In this document: in pieces, positions 22,760 through 46,200 of the stretch
Layout: each line of letters opens with the position of its first letter
Position numbering within the stretch: position 1 is the first letter of the stretch
Assembly (NCBI GenBank): GCA_019637855.1
Contig: JAHBUX010000009.1
Location: forward strand, 80,153-144,152
From: Bdellovibrionales bacterium
GTDB taxonomy: Bacteria > Bdellovibrionota > Bdellovibrionia > Bdellovibrionales > UBA1609
Reading direction: 5' to 3'
Length of the DNA: 64,000 nucleotides
Position numbers and translations under genes: made by a program
The notes under the pieces: model-generated
Told to the model about the DNA's origin: nothing
What the model saw: only the letters and a program-made list of their open reading frames with translations
The model's database searches: none

Positions 22760-23296
22760 ATGGCTAATTCTTCGGCGCGCTACGCTCTCAATAAAAACAA
22801 ATATCTCCTCGAACCCGAGGTCGATCGACTCGAATACATTTTGAAATCCTTCGCCAATAAGGATCCCCGCAACTGTACCCTGCTATGGACCTGCCTACAT
22901 TCAGGCGCGCGGGCCCAAGAGGTTTTAAATGTGCGGGTTGAAGACCTAAACACCTACGATGAAACGGTGTTTTTTCGTGGCTTAAAGGGCAGTAACGATC
23001 GCGAACTCCCCCTACCTTCATGGCTCTTCCAAAGGCTAGTGCAGGAGATTCCGAGCGCACGCGAAGATATCCTCTTTCCGATCACCTACAACCGCCTACG
23101 CCAGATTTGGGATCATTACAGACCGGTACACAAGAAGCTGCATGCCCTCAGGCATACGTTCGCGATTCGACTGTATAAGAAGACGAAGGATTTACGCCTG
23201 GTTCAGGTCGCCCTTGGTCACAGAAATATTACAAATACTATGGTTTATGCCGATTACGTCTACTCACAGCAGGAGCTGCGCAAATTGATCCTCTAA
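22760..23296 (+). CDS. Minimal tyrosine recombinase
   Basis: The 178-residue product is a catalytic domain only, like the short FimB/FimE-type invertases and small XerH-like enzymes. The active-site set is complete: Arg51 in HSGARAQEVL, Lys76 in RGLKGSND, His128 and Arg131 in HALRHTF, His154 in LGHRNITNT and Tyr163 or Tyr166 in MVYADYVY. The usual N-terminal arm-binding domain is missing. It lies in an AT-rich stretch beside a small regulator, so it may invert a local promoter or be the remnant of a mobile element. Confidence 0.88.
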   Translation: MANSSARYALNKNKYLLEPEVDRLEYILKSFANKDPRNCTLLWTCLHSGARAQEVLNVRVEDLNTYDETVFFRGLKGSNDRELPLPSWLFQRLVQEIPSAREDILFPITYNRLRQIWDHYRPVHKKLHALRHTFAIRLYKKTKDLRLVQVALGHRNITNTMVYADYVYSQQELRKLIL

Positions 23297-23608: not shown

Positions 23609-26116
23609 ATGGCTAGATTCGGTCAACTATTGGTATCCATTCTTCTCGCCTCAACGTCTATCCTCACCATGAACGCTTGGGCCAAAGACGATGAGAAGGC
23701 GATTAAAATCATAGATGATTCGGATAGCCGCTCTTGTGAGGACCTTCTTGACGATGTCATCGCCAGCTTTGAAGCCAAGAGCGCAGGTACAGAGAGCCTC
23801 TATATTGATCAAATCATCGCGAACGACAGGCCATCGTTTAGCTCTCTGATTGATCCCGATCCCGAAAAAAACTTGTTCGCACGCGCACCTTTGAACGCCA
23901 TGAACGCCGGCCAGCGCATTTTGAGCTTCGTGCTCAGCGGTGGTGTCGAAAAACGTAAAATCGGTTTCTTAAAAGAGCCCGTCACCGTTTACCCGTTCCT
24001 CTCGGACGGCACCGATTTAACCAAAGGCTATCGCGTTGAAGGCAACTGGGAAGCCCTACAAGAATGGGTGAGCTTCATGACCTCGGCCGCGGAGGGCCAT
24101 CGCTCTGGCCGTACCGTCCCGATTCTCTACGGCCCCGGTGGTACCGGTAAATCAGAAACCCGCACCGTCTTGGAAAAAGGCGGCGAAGTTTTGACCGTTC
24201 AAGATCCCCGCTTCTTCTTGTACTCGTTTGACTGGGTCGGAATGAGCAAGCTGCCGGAAATAGTCAAGCGCTGGGGACCGGATGTCGATGTCATTCCGGC
24301 TCCGCAAAACACCTCCCCAATTGCCATCCTACCCCCTTCGCTGCAGGAACAAGCTCTGAAGATGGCCAGCATCAAAGGCCAAGACATGCTGGACGGGATC
24401 CGTCCTGCCGGCCTGCTGACGCCCGACTACTGGTCACAAAACATTTTGCGCATCATTATTGAGAAATACACAGCCGATAAAGGTTCGCCGCTAACTCTTA
24501 AAGAAACCCTGCAAGCCTTAAGCAAACACGTTCAACTGCGCCGCTACGCCATTGCCGCCAGCTACCGTCAGATGCCCGTAATCAACGTTCAAGGCATTGA
24601 TTCGGACCAAACGCAGCTGTTCGTGAGCTCAATGCCGGTCGTTCAAGCGATCAGCCCGCAAGGTAAACGTGATCCGTTCGCCTACTCATACTCGGGCATT
24701 TTCTTCGACGGCATGATGAACGCCACTTTTATGGAAGAAGCGTTCCGCTCGGATCCGAAGTTCTTAGAGAAGATCATGGACGGACTTGAGTCGCGTGAAT
24801 TCCAAGCCAGTGGTGCCGCCAAGGTTCCATGGGATTCTTTCGTGACCATGATCTCGAATAAAGAGAGCTACGACTTGATGCTGCAAAAGCCCGGCCTTGG
24901 CGCTCTTATGCAGCGCTTGCAGAAGATCGAAATGGTTCAACCCGTGCAATCGCAATTGATTGCTCGCACGCTGCTCTATGAATTCAAAGACAGCCTGTTC
25001 ATGCAGCCCGTGGGTGACGAAAGTGCTCCCTGGGTCAAAGGTGACGTCGACAAACTGTTCCCTATTCCTGAAAAGCTCGAGCCCGGCTACGTTGTCGGCC
25101 CCGAGCGCCGCTACCGCATGCGTATCGGCGAAGGCAAAGCCGCGATTGAAATTGCTCCGCACGCTTTGCGTTTCGTGGCGCACATCATGGCCACCACGCG
25201 TTTATCCACGGACAAAGACAAAGCATTCCAACTGGTCCCGACGCGTATGACTCACGACCATATCTTCACCGACCCCATCCAGCGTATGCGCTACTGGGAT
25301 GGAAAGCTGACAGATGTTCAGCCAGAGGAACGTCGCACACTGGACGAAATGACCAACAAGCTGGACGAAGGCCATCACGGTATCTTCCATCGCTGGGGCC
25401 GCGGCTGGTTACGCAAAGCTCTTAGCGTCGTGAAAAACGATGCTCAGTTTGAAAACACCCTGACTGCTTCGGTCTTGTTGAAAGTGTATGAAGAGTACGG
25501 CTTCCGCGCCGACGGCTTTATCCAGATCGAAGGCGATCGCAAGAAAGAAGCCGAGTACAAGCGTTTGGGACGCTTGGTCTTGAAAGAGCTTTTGATCCCT
25601 ACCGTTGAAGAAGACATCAACTTCGCGATCGGTTCGGAAACGGCTTCGATCTCGCAGATTTACGACGACGTTCTGCAAGAGCTCGTTGAGACCGGCAAGA
25701 ACGAAAACGCCACGACCTACGTTTCGAAACGCACGAATAAAGTGACGAACATCAATAAAGAGCGCGTCGCCTTTATTCGTCAACACTACAAAAAGAACAA
25801 CAGCCACGACTTGGATATGACCCAAGTGCTGTTTTTCCATATGAACCAGCTGTCGCAAGGCGAGAAGAACGTCACACCCAGCCCTGAAATCACAGCTGGC
25901 CTGTCGGCTTACTTGGCTAAGAAGACTGTAGAACTGGCGAAAGCTGCGGGCTACGGCGAGATCGCCCGCGATGAGGGCACCGGCTCCAAGGAAGAAAAAG
26001 CCCGCGTGAACGCACTAGTGAAACAGCTGGAAGGTATCGGCTACAACCGAGCCGCGGCTTTGGATGCTTTCGATCTGCATGAGCTGACCAAGCAGCCGAC
26101 GGAAGCCGTTCAATAG
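23609..26116 (+). CDS. Exported PrkA (YeaG)-family AAA protein
   Basis: The 835-residue product has a Sec signal peptide with a cleavage site after AWA (residue 25), then a PrkA-type body. Walker A is GPGGTGKS at 175-182; SPIAILPP matches the PrkA segment after the nucleotide loop; RRYRMRIGEGKAAIEIAPHALRF leads into the C-terminal region, and the end (LVKQLEGIGYNRAAALDAF) matches the PrkA C-terminal helix. Cytosolic PrkA is about 640 residues and is described as a Ser/Thr kinase or ATP-dependent protease acting with YeaH and YcgB. Here it is longer and carries an export signal. Its only Cys is Cys43 in CEDLL, just after the signal. It heads a run of four exported giants. Confidence 0.82.
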   Translation: MARFGQLLVSILLASTSILTMNAWAKDDEKAIKIIDDSDSRSCEDLLDDVIASFEAKSAGTESLYIDQIIANDRPSFSSLIDPDPEKNLFARAPLNAMNAGQRILSFVLSGGVEKRKIGFLKEPVTVYPFLSDGTDLTKGYRVEGNWEALQEWVSFMTSAAEGHRSGRTVPILYGPGGTGKSETRTVLEKGGEVLTVQDPRFFLYSFDWVGMSKLPEIVKRWGPDVDVIPAPQNTSPIAILPPSLQEQALKMASIKGQDMLDGIRPAGLLTPDYWSQNILRIIIEKYTADKGSPLTLKETLQALSKHVQLRRYAIAASYRQMPVINVQGIDSDQTQLFVSSMPVVQAISPQGKRDPFAYSYSGIFFDGMMNATFMEEAFRSDPKFLEKIMDGLESREFQASGAAKVPWDSFVTMISNKESYDLMLQKPGLGALMQRLQKIEMVQPVQSQLIARTLLYEFKDSLFMQPVGDESAPWVKGDVDKLFPIPEKLEPGYVVGPERRYRMRIGEGKAAIEIAPHALRFVAHIMATTRLSTDKDKAFQLVPTRMTHDHIFTDPIQRMRYWDGKLTDVQPEERRTLDEMTNKLDEGHHGIFHRWGRGWLRKALSVVKNDAQFENTLTASVLLKVYEEYGFRADGFIQIEGDRKKEAEYKRLGRLVLKELLIPTVEEDINFAIGSETASISQIYDDVLQELVETGKNENATTYVSKRTNKVTNINKERVAFIRQHYKKNNSHDLDMTQVLFFHMNQLSQGEKNVTPSPEITAGLSAYLAKKTVELAKAAGYGEIARDEGTGSKEEKARVNALVKQLEGIGYNRAAALDAFDLHELTKQPTEAVQ

Positions 26117-26134
26117 ACTATCCGTTTCTTCATA

Positions 26135-26168
26135 GATGAGCCTGCGTTCGGGGGAGGGCGGGCTCATC
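26135..26168 (+). promoter_or_regulatory. Intercistronic hairpin in the exported AAA operon
   Basis: GATGAGCC and GGCTCATC form a perfect 8-bp stem around a G-rich loop, between the PrkA-like gene and the next gene. There is no T-run after it. It may protect the upstream message end or reduce read-through. Confidence 0.45.
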
Positions 26169-26193
26169 GTAAATGTGAGCTTTGGAGTTTGCC

Positions 26194-29100
26194 ATGAGAC
26201 TGTCATTCATTTCCCCCGCACTCGTGATTCTGATGACGGCAAGCTCCGCCTTCGCCAATCGCGAAGAACCGATCATCTCTGCGCAAACGGGTGGCCAGCC
26301 CTATCTGTTGGTCCTCAAAGACTCGACTAAAAAAAGCAAACGCGAACCGGGCATCTATGTCCGCAATCAGGACACCGGGGACTGGACGCTACTTTTTCCT
26401 GGCGCCGTTTTAGTCGATAAGCAACGTGGCGCTTCGACGAACATGCTGAAGCTGCAAGAGGTCGACAACCGCATGCCGATTATGGCGGTGATCGACGGCC
26501 AAATCCGCATTTGGAGTTTAATGTCGACCGCGGCAGATTCCAAAAGCTTTATCGCTTTGGGGCCTGAACCGATCACCGACATTGGTTCCGGCACGCGCTG
26601 GGAGTTACCTGCAATTACTTCGGCTGACCAACTCGCAGTCGCCCAATTTTTGACTCCAGATCGCAAGGCTATGCTGCTCTTGGTTTCGATCAAGAATCCA
26701 TCACCTTCGCAAATCGCGCAAAGTGACGGATTGACCATCGCCCTGACCTTAGAGGCCGGCGATGGCAAAGCACTCGCGTTGCGCAAAGACCGCGCATTCG
26801 TCATCGATCAAAAATTCCGCCCCGTTCAGCAGTTAAACGATCTGGCTAAGGTCGATGCGGAACACGGACTCACCATCTTTAGTGAATCGCTTGAGCAGGC
26901 GACACTGAACCAATGGGACATGATGGATTATCACGATTACAACACCAAGGTTCGCAACCTTGTGTCGGGAAAGCGCTACGCGCTCCTTATGAACGCCCCT
27001 TTCTTTAAACCCACGGTGGCCCGCTGGAGCGTCGACAAACAGAAAGCCATATACGACGATTTGTTGCAATTCGATCTAGAAACGATCACGGGCGCCCATC
27101 TGATGCAAAGATGGAATCTGTTAAGCGGAAACCCCGAGGTCGATATCACGGACCCGAAAATAGCTTCGCAATTTCTAATACAACTCAACGGCCGCCTACG
27201 CGTGGATACAAATGGCGAAGTTTGGACCGTGCTCGATACCGAATCCAAGTCTTCCGTATTCGCGATAGAACAAGACTTTTTTATTGCAACCCGGATCAAA
27301 GACTACAAACGTCATCTCAAACTCGGAAAGTTCCGCCCTAACGCAAAAATTCCCGACCGTTCATCTCTTTTGGTGTTCGAACGCGACGGCCGCGTTTATG
27401 TACTCATGAGCTACGGCTATCTACGTGAGGGAATCTCCGCGATCGCGGTCCCGCCACCTGAATATTTCCGCGCGGGGCGTACGGAGCTGTATGTCTTTAC
27501 GTCGCAAGATGGTCCGGAGTTGCACTTTGAGCGCAGTATGTCTCTTTCGGATGCTTTCTATGACAGCAACGAACTGCGTGCGCGTGTGATCGAAGAGGTC
27601 GATGACAAAGCGTCTCTGATTATCGACGTAAAGACGCCCCCCATGGGCGGGGCCCCTCATTACCACCAAGCACATAAAGGCACTTCTCCCTACCTCGACT
27701 TGCTTCGTTCGACCGATGGCATCAAGCGTTTTGTCTACACGGTACCAATCCATTCGGAGCGGTTAACGAACAATTTGATATATCGTGAGTTTGAGTTCTC
27801 GGACGGTAAAAATCCGAATGGGATTTACGAGATCAACGACTCCGGCGAAGCAGTGGCCTTCACCTCCGGTGAACTCTTGCAGCGGCAAGGTTTCGAAGGG
27901 TTTGAGATCCTCGGTCGCTCGGCTCCCTATCAAAGCGAGACGTTAGGTTCTTTTACCGCCAGCGGATTTTTCATAGATCCCACTTTTCGCGAAGGGAAAC
28001 ACGGATTTCAAACACTGCTCGATTTGCGGGGCACGAAAGATACCACTGCTTGGAGGGCCAGCGTAATTATCGCTAGCAATACTGCCGATCTGCACTCGAA
28101 CATTGTCGACCTGCGCTTGCTTAACGGAACCCGTAAGCATGCGTCGGATATGTGGATGCTGCAGTTCTATCCAAACACCGTTTGGATAGGAACCTTTTCG
28201 ATCGTCAAATCGGACAAGGGTCTTACGGCCAGCGCGGTCAAAGGGATCACTCAAAAATATGACGGCGATCCACAAAAGTTTATGGAACGTGTGGTGTATT
28301 CGTCAAACGGCGACCCGTACCTGATCGAGACACCGGAAATCTCACCGGATTCGCGCGAATTCCAGATGCGCAGCCTTCGCACAGGACAGAGTATTTTCCC
28401 AAAACGGCTCTACGGAAATGATGCGATTACATTCGATTTCAATATCAATGCCGGCGATCTATTTCAGTCATTCAATGAAAATTCAGCGTTCAGCTGGAAA
28501 GTCCAGCCTTTCCGACAACTCGAGGAAAAGCGCAATGGTTCTGTCGCCGCTCTGGTGAAAAACCAGCTATTCGCGAAGTTCTCGCAGTACTTAAGCGAGG
28601 CCGCCGACCCTCAGCAGCCTAAACGTCGTCGCATTCTGATTGTGCCGGACGAGCTAAAGGCACTGGCAGACGACTTTGTGCGCGAGTCCTATTTGATCCC
28701 GCAGCGGAAAGACGCGCCAAAAGATTCTCTGTTCCACCGCTTTAACCGTAAGCTGGGTCTGTACTTGTTCAATCGCGATCAGGCGACTCCCGATGCCGTC
28801 TTCGAAAATTTCGAAATGGCCGCACGTAAAAAAGATGAAGCTTCGGTGATCGTGGCAAGCCTTGAGGACCTCATTGAAGTCAACCGCCCCGTCACCGACG
28901 ACGACAATACCTTCTTGCTGAAAATCCCCGAATCCGTATCCGACGACGAAGGCCAGGCGCGGATGTATTTCGAGGAAATCACGCCGCACATCTTCTATCT
29001 GATGGCAGCCGGTGCACCGGTTGAATTTGAGGAGTTTCGCAAAAAGGCGCCCGCGCCGCGCGCCACGACCCTATTGATCGGTACGCGCGACGAACTCGTT

Positions 29101-31533
29101 CAACTGCAGGAGGACGCCGCGTCCGAGATGGCTGCTGGTCTAGTAGACGCTTTCGAGGTCATCGAACTTCCACAGCCGACTTTGGACTCAAAAGCGGCGA
29201 TCCTCGAGGAAGTCATGAACCGTCCTGAAATCAAAGGATTGGGTTTTGACTATGACGCGAGCGAAATTTTGGAGATGCCCAGTGAAAGCAAGGACGAGCA
29301 GCGCCGCAAGCTCTTTGAATACGCGATCACCCGCATCGATGCGCTGACCGCGGAACGTGGTAAAAATTCATATTCCAAGTTCGCCGAATTTGAAACTCTG
29401 TACCGAGAGCGCATTATCTCGGATCCGATCGTACGCACCACGCGTCTGATCGACCGAGCCTTTATCGAACGCATACTGAAAACACAGTTCAATTTAGCTC
29501 TGAACCTGGCTGACCTCCCCGAAAACGATCACCGCAAGATTTTGAGCCGCGCAGATGCGATCATTCGCCTTCATCGTTCAGGCATGCTGGGCGAGTTTGA
29601 ACTGAAAGCTCAACTCATTCGCGTCATCTTGTCTCAGATGACCCACGATCCCGCTCGCAATATAGCAGCAAGCCTGATCTTTGCCGGTGAACCCGGCACC
29701 GGAAAGTCCCAGGCCTGGTGGGCGCTTGTCGAAGCATTGGATCTGAAGCTCTATAAACCAGGGCTGAAGAACAATGACGCCAACGCGTTCTATTTGGATA
29801 CGGTGAATGTAAAGAAGGGTGATCCCGAGGCTCGTAAGCGCGTGCTACGCGAACTCAATGAGTTCGTGACTAGCGAAAAAGGCTCGACCGGATTTATCTT
29901 CATCGATGACTTGAGCTTCGCCGACGACGATCTAGGTAAGGACATTGTCCAGTGGATACGCGCCCTGCAACAAGCTGAAGGCGGCGTTTATCGTTATACG
30001 AACGAAGAAAAATCCACCTTCAGCGTTTCAGTGCGCAACCTCTTCATTGGTTTGGCGATGAACTTCACGGACAATAAAAGCACACTTAGCCAATACTCCG
30101 GCGACGACGTGAACGGCTTAGTCTCGAAAATCGTGGCAACCGGTAGCCGTTACGGAATGGATAAGTCTTTCGTCGACCGCTTCGGAGCGGTCTTCAATTT
30201 CGACAAGTTCCATCAAAGCGTAAAAGAACCGGCGCTTAACAACGCTCTCTTAAATGGCGCTCAGTCCAAAATGACCCGGGCCGGCCAATACGTTGTGGCC
30301 GATCCCGAGCTGGTTCGCGAAGCCTCAAAAGCCTTTCCAGACTTAGGCGCACGTCCCTTCTTATCGAAGGTTACGGAAGCAATCCTCAGCCAGCCCGATC
30401 AATTGCAGGGGAGCCGCTCGAAGATCTTTGCCATTATCCCCAAGACCCAAGAGGAAAGGGCCCTAGCCGAAAATGTGGGAACCGCTGTTACAACCGGCGC
30501 CTGGGGCGAACAATCCTCCGAGGTAAAAGCTTGGGTTAATAAAAATGCACGAGTGATCGAAATCGACCAAAGCCAAACGGCAGCTCTTATGTTGATGCGC
30601 TTGATGGTCCCCTCGTTCCGCTCGCCCATCATCGAATCGCTTGTCTTCGCGATCCAGACGGATCCACGCTACAACTCGGATCGCCTAGCGCAAAACTACT
30701 TCTTGTCACCAGCACTTCTGGCCGTGGTCGACCATATGAACCGCGCCGAAACGATTCCACTTAAAGACATAAAGATGGATGAGTCCCTGTTCGGCATTAA
30801 GACACGCGAGGATCGCGAAGAGTTCGGCAAACTTTTGGAAGAAATGTCCGTCGGGCAAACGCCGTTCGTTGTCCCTCTCGGCGAATCACGCGACCGCTTA
30901 AGCTTGTGGGCGGAACTCGGTGTAAATGGTACCCGTGCGAACCCGATGAACTCGCGAAACAGCGTTATCCGTACCTATCGCGGAAAAATCGAGGAGCTGC
31001 TAGAGAAGCACTTGCTGCGCACCTTAAACGTTCATGACTTGAGTGTTTTAGACAATCCCGAGGACTGGTTGCGTGGCCTGCCCGAAAAGGTTCCGGATCA
31101 CACGGACGAGCTGGGTCGCGAACTGAACAACTTGCTGTTCGCTTTTGCACGCGAGTTCCAAGCTTCGGATCTACGCGAAGCCATGGGCGAAAACTCCCCG
31201 AAGCTCGATCCTTACGTATCTGCGCGTTTCTTCTTGATGACACTCGACCAAGCGATCTCGCGCCTGCCGTGGACTCGACTGTCACAAAAGATGATGGTGG
31301 CCCTAGAGGCCGCAACTCATGACTTGGTTTTGGGCCAGTCCGTGAGCGTGAAAAACTGGCTCTTCAATCCTAAGGACCGCGTGTCTTTATTGAAGCCGGT
31401 TACGACAAACCTGATCCGTGAAATCGTCGAATTCAATTCGTCCGTGCGCGAAGTCAGTCAGGACGAACGCAGCCGTAAGGACACCGCCTTCACCACGAAC
31501 TGCGAGAAGTATCTAGACAAGGGGACACAGTGA
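26194..31533 (+). CDS. Exported giant AAA ATPase of unknown family
   Basis: The ATG at 26194 is preferred to a TTG at 26182, because GGAG lies 7 bases upstream of it. The 1779-residue product has a signal peptide with a SAFA site near residue 21. The first 1,100 residues look strand-rich and propeller-like in places (GDWTLLFPG, GRVYVLMSYG) and are not recognised. An AAA module follows: Walker A GEPGTGKS at 1165-1172, Walker B FIFIDD ending at Asp1238-Asp1239, and a sensor-1-like GLAMNF. About 400 helical residues close the protein. The single Cys is Cys1770 in CEKYL, nine residues from the end. Its stop overlaps the SpoVR-YeaH gene start. Confidence 0.75.
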   Translation: MRLSFISPALVILMTASSAFANREEPIISAQTGGQPYLLVLKDSTKKSKREPGIYVRNQDTGDWTLLFPGAVLVDKQRGASTNMLKLQEVDNRMPIMAVIDGQIRIWSLMSTAADSKSFIALGPEPITDIGSGTRWELPAITSADQLAVAQFLTPDRKAMLLLVSIKNPSPSQIAQSDGLTIALTLEAGDGKALALRKDRAFVIDQKFRPVQQLNDLAKVDAEHGLTIFSESLEQATLNQWDMMDYHDYNTKVRNLVSGKRYALLMNAPFFKPTVARWSVDKQKAIYDDLLQFDLETITGAHLMQRWNLLSGNPEVDITDPKIASQFLIQLNGRLRVDTNGEVWTVLDTESKSSVFAIEQDFFIATRIKDYKRHLKLGKFRPNAKIPDRSSLLVFERDGRVYVLMSYGYLREGISAIAVPPPEYFRAGRTELYVFTSQDGPELHFERSMSLSDAFYDSNELRARVIEEVDDKASLIIDVKTPPMGGAPHYHQAHKGTSPYLDLLRSTDGIKRFVYTVPIHSERLTNNLIYREFEFSDGKNPNGIYEINDSGEAVAFTSGELLQRQGFEGFEILGRSAPYQSETLGSFTASGFFIDPTFREGKHGFQTLLDLRGTKDTTAWRASVIIASNTADLHSNIVDLRLLNGTRKHASDMWMLQFYPNTVWIGTFSIVKSDKGLTASAVKGITQKYDGDPQKFMERVVYSSNGDPYLIETPEISPDSREFQMRSLRTGQSIFPKRLYGNDAITFDFNINAGDLFQSFNENSAFSWKVQPFRQLEEKRNGSVAALVKNQLFAKFSQYLSEAADPQQPKRRRILIVPDELKALADDFVRESYLIPQRKDAPKDSLFHRFNRKLGLYLFNRDQATPDAVFENFEMAARKKDEASVIVASLEDLIEVNRPVTDDDNTFLLKIPESVSDDEGQARMYFEEITPHIFYLMAAGAPVEFEEFRKKAPAPRATTLLIGTRDELVQLQEDAASEMAAGLVDAFEVIELPQPTLDSKAAILEEVMNRPEIKGLGFDYDASEILEMPSESKDEQRRKLFEYAITRIDALTAERGKNSYSKFAEFETLYRERIISDPIVRTTRLIDRAFIERILKTQFNLALNLADLPENDHRKILSRADAIIRLHRSGMLGEFELKAQLIRVILSQMTHDPARNIAASLIFAGEPGTGKSQAWWALVEALDLKLYKPGLKNNDANAFYLDTVNVKKGDPEARKRVLRELNEFVTSEKGSTGFIFIDDLSFADDDLGKDIVQWIRALQQAEGGVYRYTNEEKSTFSVSVRNLFIGLAMNFTDNKSTLSQYSGDDVNGLVSKIVATGSRYGMDKSFVDRFGAVFNFDKFHQSVKEPALNNALLNGAQSKMTRAGQYVVADPELVREASKAFPDLGARPFLSKVTEAILSQPDQLQGSRSKIFAIIPKTQEERALAENVGTAVTTGAWGEQSSEVKAWVNKNARVIEIDQSQTAALMLMRLMVPSFRSPIIESLVFAIQTDPRYNSDRLAQNYFLSPALLAVVDHMNRAETIPLKDIKMDESLFGIKTREDREEFGKLLEEMSVGQTPFVVPLGESRDRLSLWAELGVNGTRANPMNSRNSVIRTYRGKIEELLEKHLLRTLNVHDLSVLDNPEDWLRGLPEKVPDHTDELGRELNNLLFAFAREFQASDLREAMGENSPKLDPYVSARFFLMTLDQAISRLPWTRLSQKMMVALEAATHDLVLGQSVSVKNWLFNPKDRVSLLKPVTTNLIREIVEFNSSVREVSQDERSRKDTAFTTNCEKYLDKGTQ

Positions 31534-34500
31534 GAACCTTAATTTCGCTTTTAATCGCTCTTACGTCGGTATCACCGGCGTGGGCGAACGACGACGACGC
31601 CGGTGCCGCCCGCAGCAAATTCATCTGTGAGGAAGCCCTAAGCGTGCAAAAAGGTACGGTTCGCGTACACGGCGATGGTCTTTCCAGCGCCTATGCGGAA
31701 CAGGGCCAGCGCGAGGCTGAAGAGGCACGGGAAGTTTTAAACAAACTTGGCGTGCCCACCCCCCCACACCAGATTATCTTTGCGCCCGAACAACAGTTGA
31801 ACGTATTGGCCGCAACCGGGGCTCTTCCGATGCCACACGCGATTTCGGGCGCTGAAATCTACCGTGCCCTTTCGACCGGCAGCACAATGGGTATTCTTGA
31901 GTTCGCTCAGCCGGGTGGCGCGCCCTTAAAGCACTCCGGATGCGCGACTTGCCGCTCGTACTACTCAAACATGACAGCCATTCGCGATCAGCGCCCCATC
32001 TACTTTCACGTTGGCGGCCACAACCATGTCTTCCAACGTTCACTTCTGGCTCGTGCCCGCAACGTCGATCCCATTGCCGCCAGCGCCGTGATGGCTAAGG
32101 ACATGGAAGAACAATACAAGAAGCACGGCCAGGAACCGATCAGCCTCTTTTATCATTACTTGCACGCCATGATGGAGCTGCAGGACTTCACGGGTGGAAC
32201 CTTTGACTCGCCTGACAAGCTGACCCCGGGAGCGAGCGCCATTCAAGAGATCAAAGTCAAGAAAGACGGCGGCAACTGGGACTTCTTGACGCCAGAGAAA
32301 AAAATCAAAGAAGTGCCGTGGACAAAGACTCCGTCCGTACTGCAGTTCATGACAGCCAACCTTCCCCCGCATATCACCGGCTATAAGCGCGAGATGCTCG
32401 AGAAGTATGAGCTCACCGTTCGCACCTACCCGTCCGTTGCCAGTCAAAAGTTTGTGCACGAGGGCTGGGCAACATTCTTGATGATGCTGGGCCAGAAGCA
32501 CTCGAACTGGAACTCAGACCGCGACGTGTTCGACTTTGCCCGTATCGTCTCAGGCGCCGTCGGCAAGCAGCTCAACGTGCAGCAGCCGTACTCGTTCGGC
32601 GTGCACGGCTTCCATCATCTGTACATGAAGTTCAAGCGTCGTCCCGAGTTGAAGGGCTTGACCGAACTCGCACAAGACGTTGAGTTTGTGAAGTACATCG
32701 ACGGAATTCTACCGACGATGATCGACGCGGTCTTCGTCAACATGGTCATCGACGAAGAGTTTGTAAACCGTCACAATCTGGCCCTTCTGCGCGGCGGTAC
32801 GGAAGAAGAGCTAGGCCCGATCCACGAGAAATTAAAAGCGCGAGGCGTTCCCGACGACCAGTTGCCCAACGCCGTGATCGTCTCAAAGAGCGCCGAGCGT
32901 TTACGCAAGGCGATCATGCGCCGTGTGGGCGTGAAGCACATGCCGCAGATGGTGGCCGTCAATTCCGCGATCACCAATCCGTTCCAGCTAAATCTGGAGC
33001 AAAAGAACCTCGAAGACGCTCCCCTTGAACCGGTTTCGGCCGCCCAGATTTTCTTTGCCGCGACCCAAGTGATGGAGCAGCCCGTTTCGGCGACGATCCT
33101 GATGTCGTCGCGCCACTTCCTCGCCGAAGGTGCCAAAGCCGAAGGCCCATTGACGACCGTTCCCGTTCGCATGGAAGTGCGTCCTGACGGAAAAGTAAGA
33201 GTCTTCAAACGCGCCACCCTTGACTCTCAAGCGAAAGGTGTCGCCGAAGAAGAACTGCCGCAAATGGCAGCCGAATTGGAAATGGCCATCGACTACTATC
33301 GCACCGATCAAAGCTTTAGTTTTTCGGACGAACTGGTCGAGGAAGACCGTCAACGCTGGGAGAATATGTTCCCGCGCATGATAAATGAAGAAGTCGCGAA
33401 GTCAGCCACGGCAAAAATGGAGCCATTGGTGGACTATGCACCGGCGGCAGCGCGCGCCATCATGCTTTTTGGCGAGTTGATCAAGAATCGCTTCAATAAA
33501 CAAATGGAAGCGGCTTTCCAAGGTAAGATGAAGCTGAAGTTTGGTCCTCAGGGCGTGAGGCTGCCCATGCTACCAATGACGCCGCATTTGCAGTATGACC
33601 GCGAGCATATCAATGCCGTCAACGCGGCCCTGCCACCGGCGCCGATGGACACGATCGATCAGCGTCTGCTGAACATGAAAACAGCACTGGATGCGAACGT
33701 GGACGATGGCTCGCTTTTAGGCCCCGTACCTGGAGCTTCGGTCGGCGATGCGATTAAGATCCCCGGCAGCGGTAGTGGCCAAGGCAAAAAGAAGCCGGGT
33801 CAAGGCGATGAAGGTGAGTCGGATGAACAAGAGATCACCATTCCCGCTGAACTCTATCGCAAACTCTTGGCAATGCACTTCGATATCCCGAACCCGCGCA
33901 TGACTGAGGGTGAAACGCCGATGGTTCGCGAGATCAAGATGGGCGAACGTCGCGACTCTTCGGAAGAGCCATTGTGGGAAAAGATGGTCGCCGACGCTTT
34001 GGTGAAGTCCATTGTCGCTCGCAAAGCCAAGGGTGAGAGCAATCCGTTCCAAACAACGTCAACAGCTAAGCTCATCCGCGACGGCTTCGGCCTACTGGAC
34101 GAAGACGACTACATTATCCGCTCACGTCGTGAAGTCATGATCCCGTCATTCGACGCGGTCGTGGTTGTAAACGTCGACATTTCGGGCTCGATGCAAGGGC
34201 ACCGTCTGCAATTGACGAAGAACGCCGTCTACAACGTGCGGGAATTGTTTCGGGCCGTGTACCCGAACGTAAAATTCCACTATGTAGGCTTCGACAATAA
34301 GGCCAAAGAATATAAAGAATCGGAAATCTGGGATACGTATCGCGGGGGCTCGACCGAGTTCACACCGGCATTGATAGAAACAGAAAAGATCCTTGCGAAA
34401 TATCCGCGCGCTCAATGGAACCACTATGTCTTGTTCGCGGGTGATTCAGAGCTCTTCGATTTGCAAAAGTTCATGTCCGAATTCGAGCGCCAATCGGCGG

Positions 34501-34691
34501 GCTGGCAGTGGGCGGGCTTTATTGTCTCGCGCGATGAACGAGATCCGCCAGGCATCGACAGCAACGGCTTAAGGGCAGCACTTGATAACTTTAAGACAAA
34601 GTGGAAATGGATCGGCGTAACGCAGATCAACGGAGATGAAGATATTTTTCGCGGCTTGGGCGAACTCTTCCCGAAAACCTCTGCAAAATAG
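31530..34691 (+). CDS. Exported SpoVR(YcgB)-YeaH(VWA) fusion
   Basis: A GTG at 31530 overlaps the previous stop. The 1053-residue product has a signal peptide cleaved after AWA (residue 19). Residues about 150-420 match SpoVR/YcgB: GHNHVFQR (163-170), HEGWATF (310-316) and QPYSFGVHGFHHLY. A Gly/Lys/Gln-rich linker near 745-775 leads into a YeaH/DUF444 part: ITIPAELYRKLLAMHFDIPNP, then a VWA domain with MIDAS DISGS at 883-887, GGSTEF, QWNHYVLFAGDSELF and EDIFRGLGELF at the end. These normally are two cytosolic proteins made with PrkA. Cysteines are only Cys33 (CEEAL) and a CATC pair at 138-141. Confidence 0.85.
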   Translation: MRTLISLLIALTSVSPAWANDDDAGAARSKFICEEALSVQKGTVRVHGDGLSSAYAEQGQREAEEAREVLNKLGVPTPPHQIIFAPEQQLNVLAATGALPMPHAISGAEIYRALSTGSTMGILEFAQPGGAPLKHSGCATCRSYYSNMTAIRDQRPIYFHVGGHNHVFQRSLLARARNVDPIAASAVMAKDMEEQYKKHGQEPISLFYHYLHAMMELQDFTGGTFDSPDKLTPGASAIQEIKVKKDGGNWDFLTPEKKIKEVPWTKTPSVLQFMTANLPPHITGYKREMLEKYELTVRTYPSVASQKFVHEGWATFLMMLGQKHSNWNSDRDVFDFARIVSGAVGKQLNVQQPYSFGVHGFHHLYMKFKRRPELKGLTELAQDVEFVKYIDGILPTMIDAVFVNMVIDEEFVNRHNLALLRGGTEEELGPIHEKLKARGVPDDQLPNAVIVSKSAERLRKAIMRRVGVKHMPQMVAVNSAITNPFQLNLEQKNLEDAPLEPVSAAQIFFAATQVMEQPVSATILMSSRHFLAEGAKAEGPLTTVPVRMEVRPDGKVRVFKRATLDSQAKGVAEEELPQMAAELEMAIDYYRTDQSFSFSDELVEEDRQRWENMFPRMINEEVAKSATAKMEPLVDYAPAAARAIMLFGELIKNRFNKQMEAAFQGKMKLKFGPQGVRLPMLPMTPHLQYDREHINAVNAALPPAPMDTIDQRLLNMKTALDANVDDGSLLGPVPGASVGDAIKIPGSGSGQGKKKPGQGDEGESDEQEITIPAELYRKLLAMHFDIPNPRMTEGETPMVREIKMGERRDSSEEPLWEKMVADALVKSIVARKAKGESNPFQTTSTAKLIRDGFGLLDEDDYIIRSRREVMIPSFDAVVVVNVDISGSMQGHRLQLTKNAVYNVRELFRAVYPNVKFHYVGFDNKAKEYKESEIWDTYRGGSTEFTPALIETEKILAKYPRAQWNHYVLFAGDSELFDLQKFMSEFERQSAGWQWAGFIVSRDERDPPGIDSNGLRAALDNFKTKWKWIGVTQINGDEDIFRGLGELFPKTSAK

Positions 34692-35000
34692 CCTTCTCAG
34701 CGCCGATGAAGGACCCAAATCATCGGCGCTATTCATTATCGTGTGAATAACGATCCATTATAGAAGGCACAGTGCACCTGAAAACGCGAAAAACTTGCCT
34801 GGTTCCAATATTGAACCTCTCTCCGCACTCTCCTATCGCTTTTGAGTAAAATGATCCACCGCATTTAATAGCTGTTCCTACAATATGAGTGAAAATAATA
34901 TCCGCTATAAATCTCGGCACACACATATTTATCCGCACACAAGTTGGAAATGAAAATGCGTTCAGCTACTTCAGATCTCTCACAACAATCAGGGGGAAGC
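34692..35000 (+). other. Intergenic region before the AAA-M41 gene
   Basis: This gap holds a strong hairpin at its start (34699-34730), a GGTTC/GAACC dyad at 34801-34817, and AT-rich DNA that could carry a promoter. No other gene is supported. In-frame TTG and ATG codons at 34944, 34950 and 34956 are possible earlier starts of the next gene. Confidence 0.5.
34699..34730 (+). terminator. Hairpin after the SpoVR-YeaH gene
   Basis: AGCGCCGATGA and TCATCGGCGCT form a perfect 11-bp stem with a 10-base loop, 8 bases after the stop. The following ATTCATTAT is only weakly T-rich, so it may be a terminator or an mRNA-stabilising end. Confidence 0.55.
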
Positions 35001-38000
35001 GTGCGCGAAAGGATCTGGAAGATGGGGCTATTGGGGTTAGTCCTCTCGTTCATCATAAGCAGCAACAGCAGTTTCGCAAAAACCGATGTGATCGAAAAGG
35101 TCTACACGATCAAAGAAATTGCCGGCATGGATCTCGACGAGCTTTTTTCTTTGGGCGAAGAGTTCAATGCCCCTTTGATTCGCGTCAATAAACTCATGAA
35201 ACGCACAGACAATGAAAATGCAGACATCGCGGCGATTGTCGCACTGGCGCGCTTTCCCATTCAGGAGTCGCAACTCACGCTGTACGCCTTACTTCGCTCC
35301 GAGTTCAAAAAGGGCGAGGGCCTCGGTAAGGTGGAGATGCTACCGGAAGTGATCACCGCTGCGTTGGACACCTTGAAAGCCTTCGGTACGGGCCAACCGA
35401 ACGACCTCTTCGACGAGTTGCTCGAGGTGCGCGAAGAGGCCACAAAGCGCCTTAAAGGCGACGACGGCGAAATCGTCGCCGCCATGATCGATGAGGTCTT
35501 GGATGTCATCGGCAAGCGCAAAGACCGTTTAATCCATCTGAACGATCGTATCTCCGCGCGCAAAAAGCAAATGATGCAGACGAACGAGCGCTTGAAACGC
35601 ATCCAAGATTGGATGGAGAAACACTACAAGGGCCAGCCAGAAATCGTCGAAGGCTTTTTAGATCTGGAGTGGCGGCGCGCGCTCTACGGCAAAACCCGCA
35701 ACAAGCCGGATGCCATCTACATGATGGGGCTACCCGGAACTGGGAAAGACACAGGCGCTGAGGTCTTCACCGACGCGATCCATGGTTATAAGGGCGCTCA
35801 TAAGACACATCTTTTCCGCATGCCTCTGATGAAGTCCAAAGCGGACACCTGGCAGGTTTTCGGCTCGGCCACCGGTTACGTTGGCTCGGAATCCTTCCCG
35901 CCATTCCTGGCTTTCTTGGTGCAACACTCCGGCGGCAAATACAAACTTGAAAAAAAGCAAAACAGCCGCGGCGAAGACACCTTTTTCGTAGTCGAAAACA
36001 CCTCTTACAGTGGCGAGACGTTAGAAGGTTACTTTTCACCTGAAAGCGCCGTGGTTTTCGTCAACGAATTCCACAACTGGTCTAAGCAACTCAAAGATGA
36101 TGTCATCAAACAAGCACTCGAAAAAGGCTTGTTCCATATCAATAACCCCAATGGCGGGCTTTCTGAGATTTCCGTGCCCGTACGCTTTGTTCTGGCCTCC
36201 AACGAAGGCATTCGCCTACTCACTTCACGTGAAGCCAATGGTCAGCGCCATGGCAAACAAATGACCTACGAACATATTCTCAACAAATGGGAAGTGAATC
36301 ATAATAACAAGCCAGCACTGAAAAATGAGATCTTGGCCACTAATGGCAGTCGCAATAGTTCCGTAAACGGTGAAGGCGCGCCCGGCATCTCGGAAGAACT
36401 GCTTAATCGCATCCCTGATCGTTTTATCTTCTTGCTGCGCCCACTTTCGCCAGCCGACCTAAAAGACATCGCTGAACTTGGTTTGGTCGAGCTCTCTAAG
36501 AGCATCTCTGATGAGAGCGGCGTTCTCGGCAAAGTGAAACTGGCCTGGTCGCGTAACCTAATCGACCTTATTCAAGAGTATGATTATCTGGCCGAAGAGA
36601 ATGCGCGCCCGATCCTCGGCCACCTCGGCACCATGGTCGAAGATCCTCTGATCGATGCGATTAAATCCGGCAAACTAAAGAATCTTCCGAACGGCACCAC
36701 GGTCGAGTTGGATGTGAAGTTGAACGCCGACAAGACCCGCAGCCTGATCTTCACGGTGAACAAAGGCAAGGGGGCTACCGAGCAGTTCGAACAACAGATT
36801 CGCCAAACGCTGAAGGATATCCCGAAGGAAGCCATCAGCGATTCACGCATCGATCAATTGAGCGGCCTGGAAGAAGCCCTGAGCAGTGTGGTTTTCGGTA
36901 TCGACCCGATCTTGAAGCGCCTTTCGCAGAGAGTGATCAGCATTCAAAACGAAGCCGGCGGCAACAATGCCCGACCGGTGAACGTGATGATGCTTACCGG
37001 GCTATCTTCCACGGGTAAGACAGAAACTGCAAAACAGTTGTCACGTCTGATGTCGGGCTCAAACGACGAGTTGCTGACATTTGACTTCAGCAATATCCAA
37101 ACGCTATCGGCCTTCCAGGAAAAAATCTTGGGCTTGAAAGACGGGCTCGGCAATCCGATCCCTTCTGAGTTCATGAAGTATTACGATCGCAACAATGGTT
37201 GCGTGACCGTGGCCTTTGATGAATTGGCCAACGTGCAAAGTGAAGTTCTGCTGAAGACGCTCTATGATTTCTTCCGCGAGCCTGTGGTCGGAACGTTTTC
37301 TGACGGCAAACCGCGCGGCATGGGCTGCGTAACGGTGATCATCACCGGTAATGCAGGCCAAGAGCTCTACACTCAAGTGCCCAGCTCTATTCCTATGGAA
37401 GCGCAGATGCACGCTTGGAGCGAAATCTTCAAACGCACAGCCAACGATCCGGCCTTACAACGCCGTGTGCTTGAAAAGACCTATCCAGGCCCTCTGGTGA
37501 ATCGCATCGGCATGAACAATATCTTCTTCGTGCCGCCGCACACTTATAAGTCGTTACGCCAGCTGGCTCAGCTGAAGCTGCACTTGGCACTAGAACGGCT
37601 TGCGGACACCAATGGTCGCCGCGGTTGGAACATCACCTTTCCGACGACAGAAGAATACAAAGGATTTGTCACCAACGTGATCAATGAAGGCTTTGATCTG
37701 CGGGCACAAGGGGCCTCGATCGACTCATTTATTCGCGATGATTTCGAAGAGCCGGTCAAATACCTGTTGCTGCGCCACAAAGTCCCATCGGGCAGCCACG
37801 TGGTTCTTAAGTTTAGGAACATGACGGATAACCATGATAACGAAAACCCCGGCTATATCACCTACGACGTGTACGTCGATGGCCAAAGCGAGCCCTTAGA
37901 GTATCAAATCCGGCGCCCTTATAAAAATATGCCGATGGAAAAGGACGAGTCGGGCCAGATCTTCACAGCCTATCACGAGGCCGGCCATAGTCTGGTGCGT

Positions 38001-38831
38001 GAGGCCTTGAACGACGGCGTCTATGAACCCTACGCCATATCGATCATTCCTGGCGTCACCATGATTGGTGCGGATTGGATCTACTATGACGGTATCGCCA
38101 AGCACAGCCAACGCAAAGAAGTGGCTCTAACCCGTGACTGGGTGATCCGCGAGATCGCGGCCCTCGCCGCAGGTGAAACCGCAGAACGCCTGGCCTCACG
38201 TGGTGAGAATCACACAGCTGGCAAAGAGAACGACTTCGCGCGGGCGAGTCGTTTAGCGAAGAACGCCATCTTACGTTACGGTCTCTCGGGCGCTTGGGGT
38301 GTACACTCCGTACCCACCGATCAAACGGAGGAAAAGTACTTGGACAGCCTGTCACAAGAGCGTCGCAATATCTTGGAGAAAGAAGTTGCGGCCATGGTGA
38401 ACGAAGGCCGTGACCTGGCCCAGCAGACTCTGGAAGCGAATTTGGCCGCACTCGGCGAGCTGGCCGTGGCCTTGGCAGAAAAAGGCACGTTGGAAAAAGA
38501 CGATTTGGCCAAGTTCTATAAAGAGCATACGCTGATCAATCCGCGCCAGAGCTCAAGACTCGCGCGCACTATCAACCGCGTACGCACCAAGATCAATCAG
38601 CTCAAGCACCCGCGCCGCAGCCACCAGGTGAACGCCGAAGTGCACCCGGCCTTCCCACAACCCAGACAGATTGCGGACATTGATCAAATGGCGGAAGAGG
38701 CCAAACACCAGCAGTTCGAAGAAGTGGCCTTGCCGGATAAACTACCGGTAGGAACCAACGCTCATTATGACCGTGCTCATTCAGTTGTGGACGTTGAGAG
38801 CTGTGAAGGCGCTTTAGCGCAAGCGATCTAA
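35001..38831 (+). CDS. Exported tandem Clp-like AAA protein fused to FtsH-type M41 protease
   Basis: The GTG at 35001 is chosen for AGGGGGA just upstream and because it leaves a normal signal (RERIWK, hydrophobic core, cut after SFA). The product has 1276 residues. Two AAA modules follow: Walker A GLPGTGKD at 243-250 with VFVNEF (Asp replaced by Asn), and GLSSTGKT at 667-674 with VAFDELAN, both Clp-like in layout. The C-terminus has an M41 zinc protease: HEAGH at 992-996 and the third ligand Asp1078 in GKENDFARAS, with AAGETAERLAS as in FtsH. FtsH normally pairs M41 with one FtsH-type AAA facing the cytosol; here the orientation predicted by the signal is outward. A CEGAL motif lies nine residues from the end. 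Confidence 0.85.
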   Translation: MRERIWKMGLLGLVLSFIISSNSSFAKTDVIEKVYTIKEIAGMDLDELFSLGEEFNAPLIRVNKLMKRTDNENADIAAIVALARFPIQESQLTLYALLRSEFKKGEGLGKVEMLPEVITAALDTLKAFGTGQPNDLFDELLEVREEATKRLKGDDGEIVAAMIDEVLDVIGKRKDRLIHLNDRISARKKQMMQTNERLKRIQDWMEKHYKGQPEIVEGFLDLEWRRALYGKTRNKPDAIYMMGLPGTGKDTGAEVFTDAIHGYKGAHKTHLFRMPLMKSKADTWQVFGSATGYVGSESFPPFLAFLVQHSGGKYKLEKKQNSRGEDTFFVVENTSYSGETLEGYFSPESAVVFVNEFHNWSKQLKDDVIKQALEKGLFHINNPNGGLSEISVPVRFVLASNEGIRLLTSREANGQRHGKQMTYEHILNKWEVNHNNKPALKNEILATNGSRNSSVNGEGAPGISEELLNRIPDRFIFLLRPLSPADLKDIAELGLVELSKSISDESGVLGKVKLAWSRNLIDLIQEYDYLAEENARPILGHLGTMVEDPLIDAIKSGKLKNLPNGTTVELDVKLNADKTRSLIFTVNKGKGATEQFEQQIRQTLKDIPKEAISDSRIDQLSGLEEALSSVVFGIDPILKRLSQRVISIQNEAGGNNARPVNVMMLTGLSSTGKTETAKQLSRLMSGSNDELLTFDFSNIQTLSAFQEKILGLKDGLGNPIPSEFMKYYDRNNGCVTVAFDELANVQSEVLLKTLYDFFREPVVGTFSDGKPRGMGCVTVIITGNAGQELYTQVPSSIPMEAQMHAWSEIFKRTANDPALQRRVLEKTYPGPLVNRIGMNNIFFVPPHTYKSLRQLAQLKLHLALERLADTNGRRGWNITFPTTEEYKGFVTNVINEGFDLRAQGASIDSFIRDDFEEPVKYLLLRHKVPSGSHVVLKFRNMTDNHDNENPGYITYDVYVDGQSEPLEYQIRRPYKNMPMEKDESGQIFTAYHEAGHSLVREALNDGVYEPYAISIIPGVTMIGADWIYYDGIAKHSQRKEVALTRDWVIREIAALAAGETAERLASRGENHTAGKENDFARASRLAKNAILRYGLSGAWGVHSVPTDQTEEKYLDSLSQERRNILEKEVAAMVNEGRDLAQQTLEANLAALGELAVALAEKGTLEKDDLAKFYKEHTLINPRQSSRLARTINRVRTKINQLKHPRRSHQVNAEVHPAFPQPRQIADIDQMAEEAKHQQFEEVALPDKLPVGTNAHYDRAHSVVDVESCEGALAQAI

Positions 38832-39694: not shown

Positions 39695-40516
39695 CTAAAA
39701 CCAATAGAAAACCGTAGCCCCGGCTTCCATGGAGAAAATCGATTGGTTAAAAAACTCTCCGGCGCGCAACTCAAACGCCGAAGACCAGTTCTCTCCGTGC
39801 ATAAACTGCAGCCCTGTCATAGCATGCAGACCCACATACAAAGGCAAGTCCTCTGATGTGGTCGGCAGATCTAGTGAACCAAGACGGATTTTGATCTTTG
39901 TGGCCCGATCAACCTCGCCCCCTATTCCGACATAGAAGGGGGCGAAACGCTTTAGCGGATTAAACGCCCTTTGCACGCCAAAGGACATCATGGTGTGCTC
40001 TACTTGCAGATCCTGTTGCACCGAACCGGGAATGTCTTTGACCGCCGTCGCTTTGTAGCGAGTCAAGCGCGTGCCGGCGAAAAAACGCCAGAAATTTTTG
40101 CGCGCCACCTGTACCCAGAAAAGGCCAGAAACCATCTGACTCTTATAGTTGCTGGTGGTGTATTCCACCTGATCTTCCGTGTGAAAGCTTTTGCCCTTTT
40201 GATCTAAACTTGAAATTAGCGGGCCAGCACCAATGGCCCACCCGTCTTGCGCATACAGGTCGACCGCCCTTTTGCCATAGAGCTCGGCACTCAGCACATA
40301 GCCGCCATAGATCTTGCCAGAACGCTTAAGGCGGATCCGGGTGTACTCTCCTTCGACCTTGCCAATAGCTACCCGCTCGCCGCGCGTAAGCAGAAAGATT
40401 TGGGCGTAGCCGTCGCCCGGGCCCTTGCGAACCGCAATGCTGCCTGGGGACTCAAGAATGGAGGGGGCGGCCGGGGCTTGCGACCACACAAGAAACAGGG
40501 CCAGAATCCAATGCAT
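39695..40516 (-). CDS. SH3b-domain protein with outer-membrane beta-barrel end
   Basis: The 273-residue product has a signal peptide (cut near PAA, residue 17). Residues about 22-80 look like a bacterial SH3 domain (IAVRKGPGDGYAQIFLLTRGERVAIGKVEGEYTRIRL), a fold that often binds peptidoglycan or peptides. The rest has alternating aromatic strands and ends in GATVFYWF; the C-terminal Phe is the BAM recognition signal of outer-membrane barrels. Small barrel with an N-terminal SH3b is therefore the best description. Function is unknown. Confidence 0.65.
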   Translation of the reverse strand: MHWILALFLVWSQAPAAPSILESPGSIAVRKGPGDGYAQIFLLTRGERVAIGKVEGEYTRIRLKRSGKIYGGYVLSAELYGKRAVDLYAQDGWAIGAGPLISSLDQKGKSFHTEDQVEYTTSNYKSQMVSGLFWVQVARKNFWRFFAGTRLTRYKATAVKDIPGSVQQDLQVEHTMMSFGVQRAFNPLKRFAPFYVGIGGEVDRATKIKIRLGSLDLPTTSEDLPLYVGLHAMTGLQFMHGENWSSAFELRAGEFFNQSIFSMEAGATVFYWF

Positions 40517-40608
40517 ACCCTATGTTAGGAGACATTTACGCGTAGAACAAATGCGGCGCGGATAGGGTCTTGACTGCATCGCGCCATAAAGCATAGATTC
40601 TGCGGGCT

Positions 40609-41190: not shown

Positions 41191-41245
41191 TTTCGCTGGC
41201 TTTATAGATGATCTTTGGCGCTTTCGAACATTATTAAGGTGATGT

Positions 41246-41425
41246 ATGCCAACTCCGAAGAAGAAAACCTCGCGTTCCCGCCGTAACATGCGCCGCTCGC
41301 ATGATTTCCTGACGGTTCCGGGTGTGCAAGCTTGCCCCAACTGCGGCGCTCTTGCAAAACCGCACCACGTCTGCGCCTCCTGCGGTTACTACAAAGGTCG
41401 CGAAGTCGTAACGGCTCAAGCATAA
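41246..41425 (+). CDS. rpmF: 50S ribosomal protein L32
   Basis: The 59-residue product starts [19 protein letters not shown], which is diagnostic for L32. The zinc ribbon is complete with CPNC and CASC. AAGGTGATGT precedes the ATG. It follows yceD and is 3 bp from fabH; the usual plsX between rpmF and fabH is absent. Confidence 0.96.
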
Positions 41426-41428
41426 GCC

Positions 41429-42421: not shown

Positions 42422-42423
42422 AT

Positions 42424-43383: not shown

Positions 43384-43386
43384 GAG

Positions 43387-44124: not shown

Positions 44125-44131
44125 GCGCGTT

Positions 44132-44145
44132 TCGCCTTTGGGCGA
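44132..44145 (+). terminator. Small hairpin between fabG and acpP
   Basis: TCGCC and GGCGA form a 5-bp stem with a 4-base loop just after fabG. There is no T-run. It may slightly separate the highly expressed acpP from the upstream genes. Confidence 0.3.
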
Positions 44146-44211
44146 CATGCTGAATTCTGTACACATGCAATTTAATTAAGATATAACAATTTACTCAAAA
44201 AAGGAGAGTAC

Positions 44212-44448: not shown

Positions 44449-44458
44449 AGGTCAAGCG

Positions 44459-46185: not shown

Positions 46186-46200
46186 GAAAGGTCCTCCCAA

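Follow-up and report, generated by a model that had tools for sequence, protein, structure and literature searches.

Can a protein-remodelling machine that runs on adenosine triphosphate (ATP) be built for use outside the cytoplasm of the bacterium that encodes it? This question is raised by a locus in a 64,000-nucleotide stretch of DNA (hereafter the window) of a Bdellovibrionales bacterium (assembly GCA_019637855.1, contig JAHBUX010000009.1, positions 80,153 to 144,152), in which four plus-strand genes lie side by side at 23609-38831 and each product has a Sec-type signal-peptide-like start. They encode a PrkA-like AAA protein (P0001), a giant with a Clp-like AAA part (P0002), a fusion of SpoVR with DUF444, the YeaH family (P0003), and a double-AAA protein that ends in an M41 zinc protease (P0004). 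Our favoured reading, which we hold tentatively, is that the locus encodes a second, predicted-exported machine made of the PrkA-like protein, the Clp-like giant and the SpoVR-YeaH fusion, which carries a co-varying terminal cysteine (Cys) tag and likely remodels proteins inside another cell. An earlier note on this DNA had described the four genes as an extracytoplasmic, possibly prey-directed system; the terminal tag went unnoticed there and is a new observation. The window belongs to a genome of 3.37 Mb in 26 contigs (G000), which is of the same genus as G246, G247 and G248, and the genome searches covered 368 genomes of a single phylum, the Bdellovibrionota; each protein search scored the approximately 8000 candidates with the most shared words.

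Predicted Signal Peptides and Cysteine Content

All four N-termini consist of a basic n-region, a hydrophobic core and a small-residue cut site, and the cut sites AWA, AFA, AWA and SFA that the earlier note listed for four adjacent same-strand genes were seen again. An upstream in-frame cytosolic start, which would have spoken against export, does not exist in the window: each listed ORF opens at the earliest start codon that follows a stop. The export calls are predictions that were made using home-made simple signal rules, one strict and one laxer. Under the laxer rule, in which alternative starts were limited to 35 codons, 53 of the 57 intact relatives were positive compared with 2 of the 62 canonical cytosolic proteins, and predicted export is thus conserved in the orthologues. 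The set of 57 includes P0004 and excludes P0001-P0003; open reading frames (ORFs) open at the 5' end were left out, as were pieces shorter than 750, 1700, 1000 or 1200 amino acids (aa), depending on the family. The positives were spread across the PrkA-like (9/10), giant (11/12), SpoVR-DUF444 (18/19) and AAA-M41 (15/16) families, while only 1/20 canonical PrkA proteins was positive. A version of the laxer rule that admitted starts up to 110 codons in was dropped, with 18/20 canonical PrkA proteins positive in the control. The strict rule was positive in 44/57 relatives and 0/62 canonical proteins. For single genes it is leaky (126/328 background genes were positive), and the evidence for export is therefore the conservation together with the canonical controls. 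With the start sites of the deposited database proteins, a laxer rule was positive in 11/11, 9/9 and 6/7 cases. Among the relatives, the layout of the signal is kept while its letters and cut sites change fast.

The predicted-exported proteins are also poor in Cys, with means of 2.7 (PrkA-like), 1.5 (giant), 3.2 (SpoVR-DUF444) and 1.8 (AAA-M41) per 1000 aa compared with 6.2, 6.5 and 11.2 for canonical PrkA, DUF444 and SpoVR, respectively. None of the four has its tag Cys where a lipoprotein carries the lipobox Cys, at +1 of the mature protein; the tag Cys is mature residue 18 of P0001 and mature residue 14 of P0003, and those of P0002 and P0004 are close to the C-terminal end. The earlier note had concluded that the whole module was moved out of the cytoplasm, which did not hold: the search for separate copies that it called for revealed a cytosolic prkA-yeaH-spoVR set without signal peptides in the same genome (C1:291-296 kb). 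Three separate cytosolic proteins, as in the canonical operon, are not what the module encodes; two of the domains are fused and the starts are signal-like.

A Co-Varying Terminal Tag

All four families carry a terminal tag of the form C-x-x-hydrophobic-[L/F]. In the PrkA-like and SpoVR-DUF444 proteins, its Cys stands shortly past the signal peptide, while in the giants and the AAA-M41 proteins it stands near the C-terminus. Among 78 tags, position +4 was L in 46, F in 16 and I in 7, and position +1 was E in 25. Tags of different families within one genome resemble each other, e.g., CNDYF/CQVYF/CGSYF in G198, CNVDE/CSNNE/CGNNE in G021, CRDII/CKEIL/CRDII in G358 and CQEIH/CSGVH in G173. When the tags were shuffled among genomes inside each family and compared by the mean BLOSUM62 score at +1..+5, the similarity within genomes was 0.88 compared with 0.08 (standard deviation 0.12) after shuffling (p=0.0002, 55 pairs), and position +4 alone gave 3.16 compared with 1.46. 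The shuffle control at -7..-3 gave p=0.24; the one at +6..+10 is weighed below. In the smallest subset (33 pairs), which omits four near-duplicates, two genomes of the same genus and a further three, the tag retained p=0.0002, while the controls gave p=0.52 (-7..-3) and p=0.24 (+6..+10). Such co-variation within genomes implies a putative shared handler of the tagged proteins.

Conserved Core and Domain Composition

The PrkA-like, giant and SpoVR-DUF444 genes were found to be adjacent in 12 other genomes, as read in stretches of at most 20 kb in which each of the three is present at least in part. The core of G021 has its PrkA-like gene on the opposite strand, in G341 and G271 the giant gene is in several pieces, and in G262 and G258 there is no giant between the other two genes. 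The SpoVR-DUF444 profile matched 338/368 genomes; the long form (E<=1e-50, with some copies cut by contig ends) was present in 29/368 genomes and 13/29 families, and the next match below this group was at 1.8e-26, where the listed matches span the DUF444 end only. The exported SpoVR-DUF444 gene of G291 (L042 2-5590) is tandemly duplicated, with both copies tagged CEKIL.

Of the four-gene system proposed by the earlier note, the first three genes stood as the conserved core. The fourth, which is preceded by a strong hairpin, is linked to the core but in most relatives not part of it, and was rejected as a core member: AAA-M41 (E<=1e-100) was found in 25/368 genomes, 9 of which are among the 29 core genomes, and because 14 of the 25 belong to the window's own family, the overlap with the core is confounded by phylogeny. 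Among the stretches read, AAA-M41 was near the core only in G248, where two such genes lie at most ~14 kb upstream.

The bodies that the earlier note had named for P0001, P0003 and P0004 were borne out by Pfam matches above the cut-offs (Table 1). That of P0001 to AAA_PrkA (PF08298; 26.7 bits, cut-off 25) covers part of the AAA domain only, and its phmmer match to the solved PrkA-type kinase chain 9xip is weak (E 0.0022); nine relatives of 54-62% identity were found in the protein search. The Walker A motif is intact in every exported PrkA-like row that covers the site, and at the Walker B position these proteins have DE or EE, which differs from the four canonical PrkA rows shown. P0002 exceeded no Pfam or NCBIfam family cut-off, with DUF815/AAA of Pfam matching only below threshold. 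Its all-beta part was modelled by AlphaFold2 at a predicted local distance difference test score of 78 and gave a propeller-like Foldseek list, but the global template-modelling scores were low; its C-terminal half has a double AAA fold of the Clp/Hsp100 type, with Skd3 among the fold matches. The SpoVR motifs HxxGH and EG[WF] are preserved among the relatives of P0003, with one variant, HYLGH. In the AAA-M41 family, the zinc ligands HEXXH and the third Asp are kept in 20/20 distinct relatives, and the second ring has D/E-E in 20/20, while the first mostly has N-E; against the NCBIfam FtsH_fam equivalog, P0004 scored 73 bits, with a cut-off of 600. The kept ATPase and zinc-ligand motifs argue for ATP hydrolysis wherever the exported proteins may act.

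The ORFs of the four genes are 23609-26116 (835 aa), 26182-31533 (1783 aa), 31530-34691 (1053 aa) and 34944-38831 (1295 aa). The likely start of P0002 is the ATG at 26194 (1779 aa), in agreement with the database protein P0025, and P0003 starts with GTG in a 4-base overlap with the stop of P0002. The hairpin between genes three and four was absent from the terminator-scan list, for which the loop limit was 8. Relatives of the window genes at 39695-48067, 3' of the module, adjoin the core in the same-genus genomes G246, G247 and G248, even though the core itself has diverged strongly in the latter two. A short way 5' of the module is a tyrosine recombinase (Phage_integrase) of 178 aa (22760-23296, plus strand); another of this type and length lies a short way 5' of the AAA-M41 gene in G248 (L114:4691-5227, plus strand).

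Table 1. Features of the predicted-exported module, in window coordinates.
Feature	Position	Strand	Evidence or remark
P0001, exported (predicted) PrkA-like AAA protein	23609..26116	+	AAA_PrkA match, weak 9xip match, relatives
P0001 signal peptide, residues 1-25, TMNAWA^KDD	23609..23683	+	
P0001 N-terminal tag CEDLL, C43 the sole Cys	23735..23749	+	C43 invariant in 10 sequences
P0001 Walker A, GPGGTGKS	24131..24154	+	kept in 17/17 covering rows
P0002, exported (predicted) giant, beta-propeller-like and Clp-like AAA	26194..31533	+	
P0002 signal peptide, SSAFA^NRE	26194..26256	+	
P0002 all-beta part resembling tandem beta-propellers (approximately residues 26-740)	26257..28401	+	AlphaFold2 and Foldseek
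P0002 Clp/Hsp100-like double AAA part (residues 790-1462)	28549..30567	+	Walker A 29686-29709
P0002 C-terminal tag CEKYL, C1774 the sole Cys	31501..31515	+	C1774 invariant in 8 sequences
P0003, exported (predicted) SpoVR-DUF444(YeaH) fusion	31530..34691	+	Pfam matches
P0003 signal peptide, residues 1-19, SPAWA^NDD	31530..31586	+	
P0003 N-terminal tag CEEAL, C33	31626..31640	+	
P0003 SpoVR domain (PF04293)	31950..32807	+	32.2 bits, cut-off 27
P0003 DUF444 (YeaH; PF04285) VWA domain, metal-ion-dependent adhesion site DxSxS	34053..34676	+	70.6 bits, cut-off 27; DxSxS kept
Strong hairpin separating gene 3 from gene 4, not followed by a T run	34699..34730	+	-19.1 kcal/mol, z -3.47
P0004, exported (predicted) double-AAA (ClpB-like) and M41 zinc protease	34944..38831	+	linked accessory, outside core
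P0004 N-terminal extension and signal peptide, to residue 45, NSSFA^KTD	34944..35078	+	
P0004 second AAA ring, ClpB/ClpA-like	36795..37823	+	
P0004 Peptidase M41, HEAGH and third Asp	37956..38510	+	77.3 bits, cut-off 29.9
P0004 C-terminal tag CEGAL, C1287	38802..38816	+	

Tagged Proteins outside the Module

A restriction of the tag to the module was considered and rejected, as other exported proteins are tagged too. In the first samples of soluble exported proteins with a single Cys, this Cys was terminal in 5/6 (G000), 6/6 (G139, a genome without a core hit) and 15/18 (G021, including ten tandem paralogues), where 1.3, 1.2 and 3.5, respectively, were expected; the cytosolic controls showed no terminal excess (7/23, 3/17 and 3/18). 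For soluble exported proteins that contain no more than three Cys, the pattern C...[LF] occurs at 13/33 terminal and 10/72 internal Cys (p=0.004), and at the terminal Cys of cytosolic proteins it occurs in 10/58 cases (p=0.019). The pattern C[ED]..[LIF] by itself was not clearly enriched over all of the Cys of G000 (7/118 N-terminal in proteins with a signal peptide, 28/725 in those without), and C..[ND]E.Y, a motif surmised for G021, matched none of the exported termini of the other proteins sampled from that genome.

Two of the tagged proteins bear on the place of action. The window genome encodes a Leu/Phe-transfer RNA (tRNA)-protein transferase (C1:601826-602701; L108:1826-2701, minus strand; Pfam E 3.3e-47) with a signal-like start and the tag SSCEMSL, in addition to a transferase gene without a signal peptide on contig C21. 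Among the inspected loci, i.e., the ten best of the phylum search, in which 295/368 genomes had any transferase hit, and the ordinary C21 copy, five transferases were tagged and signal-bearing (G000, G246, G248, G212 and G209) and the other six were not; the start of the G246 protein fails the strict rule, its signal peptide being recognised by eye. In G212, the tags of the transferase and of AAA-M41 both end in F. The second protein, a PIN-PhoH protein (C26:74621-76393; L113:14468-16240, plus strand; E 1.1e-30), has a signal-like start and the tag TTCAEEL; its gene lies ~27 kb upstream of the module, and a second PhoH gene is on contig C21.

Further tagged proteins were observed in several places. 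A cluster on C26 (L193:9532-16824) encodes small exported Cys-tagged proteins, some without a Pfam match; one has an RNA polymerase alpha-CTD-like match, which may reflect helix-hairpin-helix repeats, and a C-terminal tag. A small predicted-exported protein without a Pfam match is encoded in the window (54903-55577, minus strand), with its sole mature Cys in the C-terminal tag ECEQAL. Directly upstream of the core of G248 (L114:9397-18991) are further genes that are both signal-positive and tagged, one for an ATP-grasp protein of 1065 aa, one for a second AAA-M41 protein of 1324 aa and two for unknown proteins. The core-less G139 has a Fic/DOC protein with a signal-like start and the tag MCEYVF (L146:1250-3559, minus strand), and in G021 ten paralogues of ~350 aa are encoded in tandem (L167:102-11360, plus strand); every one has a signal peptide, and its only Cys sits in the near-identical tag ELCNFSFLA.

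Proposed Mechanism and Alternatives

Charged tRNA occurs only inside cells, and a transferase with a signal peptide therefore makes sense in the interior of another cell, or else the export does not happen; the common, co-varying tag points to the same route for the AAA+ proteins. The proteins with a Sec signal and a Cys tag would form an effector class, of which the AAA+ set is the protein-remodelling arm, likely acting in prey. After Sec export, the tag Cys would be bound, probably by a disulfide, to a shared carrier or anchor that reads C-x-x-hydrophobic-L/F and that delivers or displays the tagged proteins at a site supplied with ATP and charged tRNA, most likely in the prey interior after the inner membrane is breached. 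MoxR-type AAA+ proteins work in pairs with VWA proteins; in this fashion, the PrkA-like AAA protein would pair with the VWA domain that the SpoVR fusion contains. Substrate unfolding would fall to the propeller-Clp giant and protein degradation to the AAA-M41 protease, whose substrates may in part have been marked by the exported transferase. The carrier is proposed by analogy with the disulfide partner GldK of Bacteroidota, a precedent for Cys motifs that share a partner (PMC12635249).

A more specific version is possible, and we offer it with greater reserve: a hitherto undescribed two-part targeting code of the Bdellovibrionota, in which a Sec signal peptide combined with one C-x-x-hydrophobic-[L/F] Cys tag at a terminus, read by a putative co-evolving and lineage-specific receptor, would send duplicated cytosolic machines (the PrkA/propeller-Clp/SpoVR-YeaH AAA+ complex, AAA-M41, the Leu/Phe-tRNA-protein transferase, PhoH-PIN, ATP-grasp and Fic) into prey, there to run on the prey's ATP and tRNA and to turn over its proteome, including by N-end-rule marking. 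The Bdellovibrionota are a predator-rich phylum, and the prey direction suggested by the earlier note gained indirect support from the tagged signal-bearing transferase and PhoH-PIN of the same genome. In Bdellovibrio, a discussion of putative attack-phase core genes covers the canonical operon bd0228-bd0231, with a kinase, an uncharacterised protein and SpoVR (PMC5430801), and secretion in Bdellovibrio is called largely unexplored by a 2025 toolbox paper (PMC12622784).

Several observations weigh against action in prey by way of a shared tag. The source organism is not known as a predator. The +6..+10 shuffle control was also significant (p=0.005), which means that shared composition or ancestry contributes to the likeness of the tags. 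The giant of G173 is devoid of Cys over its 30 C-terminal residues, whereas the seven other untagged rows are gene pieces. When G000 was sampled more widely and the terminal window was made stricter, the excess was modest (6/14 compared with 2.6 expected; cytosolic proteins 9/40 compared with 10.0). Finally, the tagged set includes a solute-binding protein and peptidases, S41 and M16, that are able to work in the periplasm. These last proteins fit the alternative that survives best, although we consider it rather unlikely, i.e., that the machine acts in the bacterium's own periplasm or at its surface on ATP from lysed or leaking cells, in envelope quality control or remodelling, with the tag as an anchor there. 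Signal peptides and a low Cys content would suit an oxidising periplasm, and torsin and Skd3 are eukaryotic precedents for extracytoplasmic AAA+ proteins; however, ATP is normally absent from the periplasm, and the transferase of the same layout would find no charged tRNA.

That two families are tagged N-terminally and two C-terminally would also be expected if the terminal Cys were no carrier signal and linked subunits directly by disulfides, for example the N-terminus of the PrkA-like protein to the C-terminus of the giant, and direct partners would co-vary too. We regard this as distinctly improbable, because the same type of tag is found on proteins outside the module, and 16 of the 25 genomes with a strong AAA-M41 lack the core, yet the AAA-M41 tag persists (e.g., in G238, G250 and G264). 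That the N-termini do not serve export at all, the proteins being second copies of stress machines that are cytoplasmic or held at the inner membrane facing inwards, is very improbable: AAA+ and tRNA-dependent enzymes do require a cytosol and a simple rule positive in 126/328 background genes is leaky, but the signal layout is conserved above fast-changing letters and cut sites (53/57 against 2/62), the tag is conserved, Cys is depleted and a cytosolic set is already in the genome.

If the favoured machine is delivered into another cell, it would explain how the proteins of that cell are taken over using its own ATP, and the tag would make it possible to compile an effector list for every genome; should the machine be periplasmic instead, usable ATP must be present there. 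With one Cys per protein, the question is directly testable.

Comparison with Known Systems

No bacterial AAA+ machine is known to us to act outside its own cytoplasm, and none was found in searches of open-licence papers; nor did these searches turn up a described exported version of the PrkA/YeaH/SpoVR module, in agreement with the earlier note. Among the closest systems is the canonical cytosolic prkA(yeaG)-yeaH/yhbH(DUF444)-ycgB(spoVR) stress and sporulation module, which brings together the same PrkA AAA, DUF444 VWA and SpoVR families, whereas here there are signal peptides, larger divergent proteins, a fusion of SpoVR with DUF444, an added giant and a terminal Cys tag. The tag itself is reminiscent of SprF/PorG-GldK of Bacteroidota gliding and the type IX secretion system, in which short Cys motifs in the C-tails of different exported proteins are joined by disulfides to one partner (PMC12635249); the present case concerns another phylum, other proteins and a tag that can be at either end. 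With the Clp/Hsp100 proteins (ClpA, ClpC and ClpB), the C-terminal half of P0002 shares a likeness of fold and P0004 the ClpB-like rings, but predicted export, the propeller-like N-terminal half of the giant and the M41 protease fused in P0004 set the present proteins apart. FtsH has the M41 zinc protease domain in common with P0004, the AAA part of which is ClpB-like and double, with a signal-like start instead of the membrane anchors of FtsH. Human Skd3/CLPB and the torsins are AAA+ proteins that work outside the cytosol, like the set predicted here; they reside in eukaryotic organelle compartments and have neither a Cys tag nor PrkA/SpoVR partners, both of which the bacterial module has.

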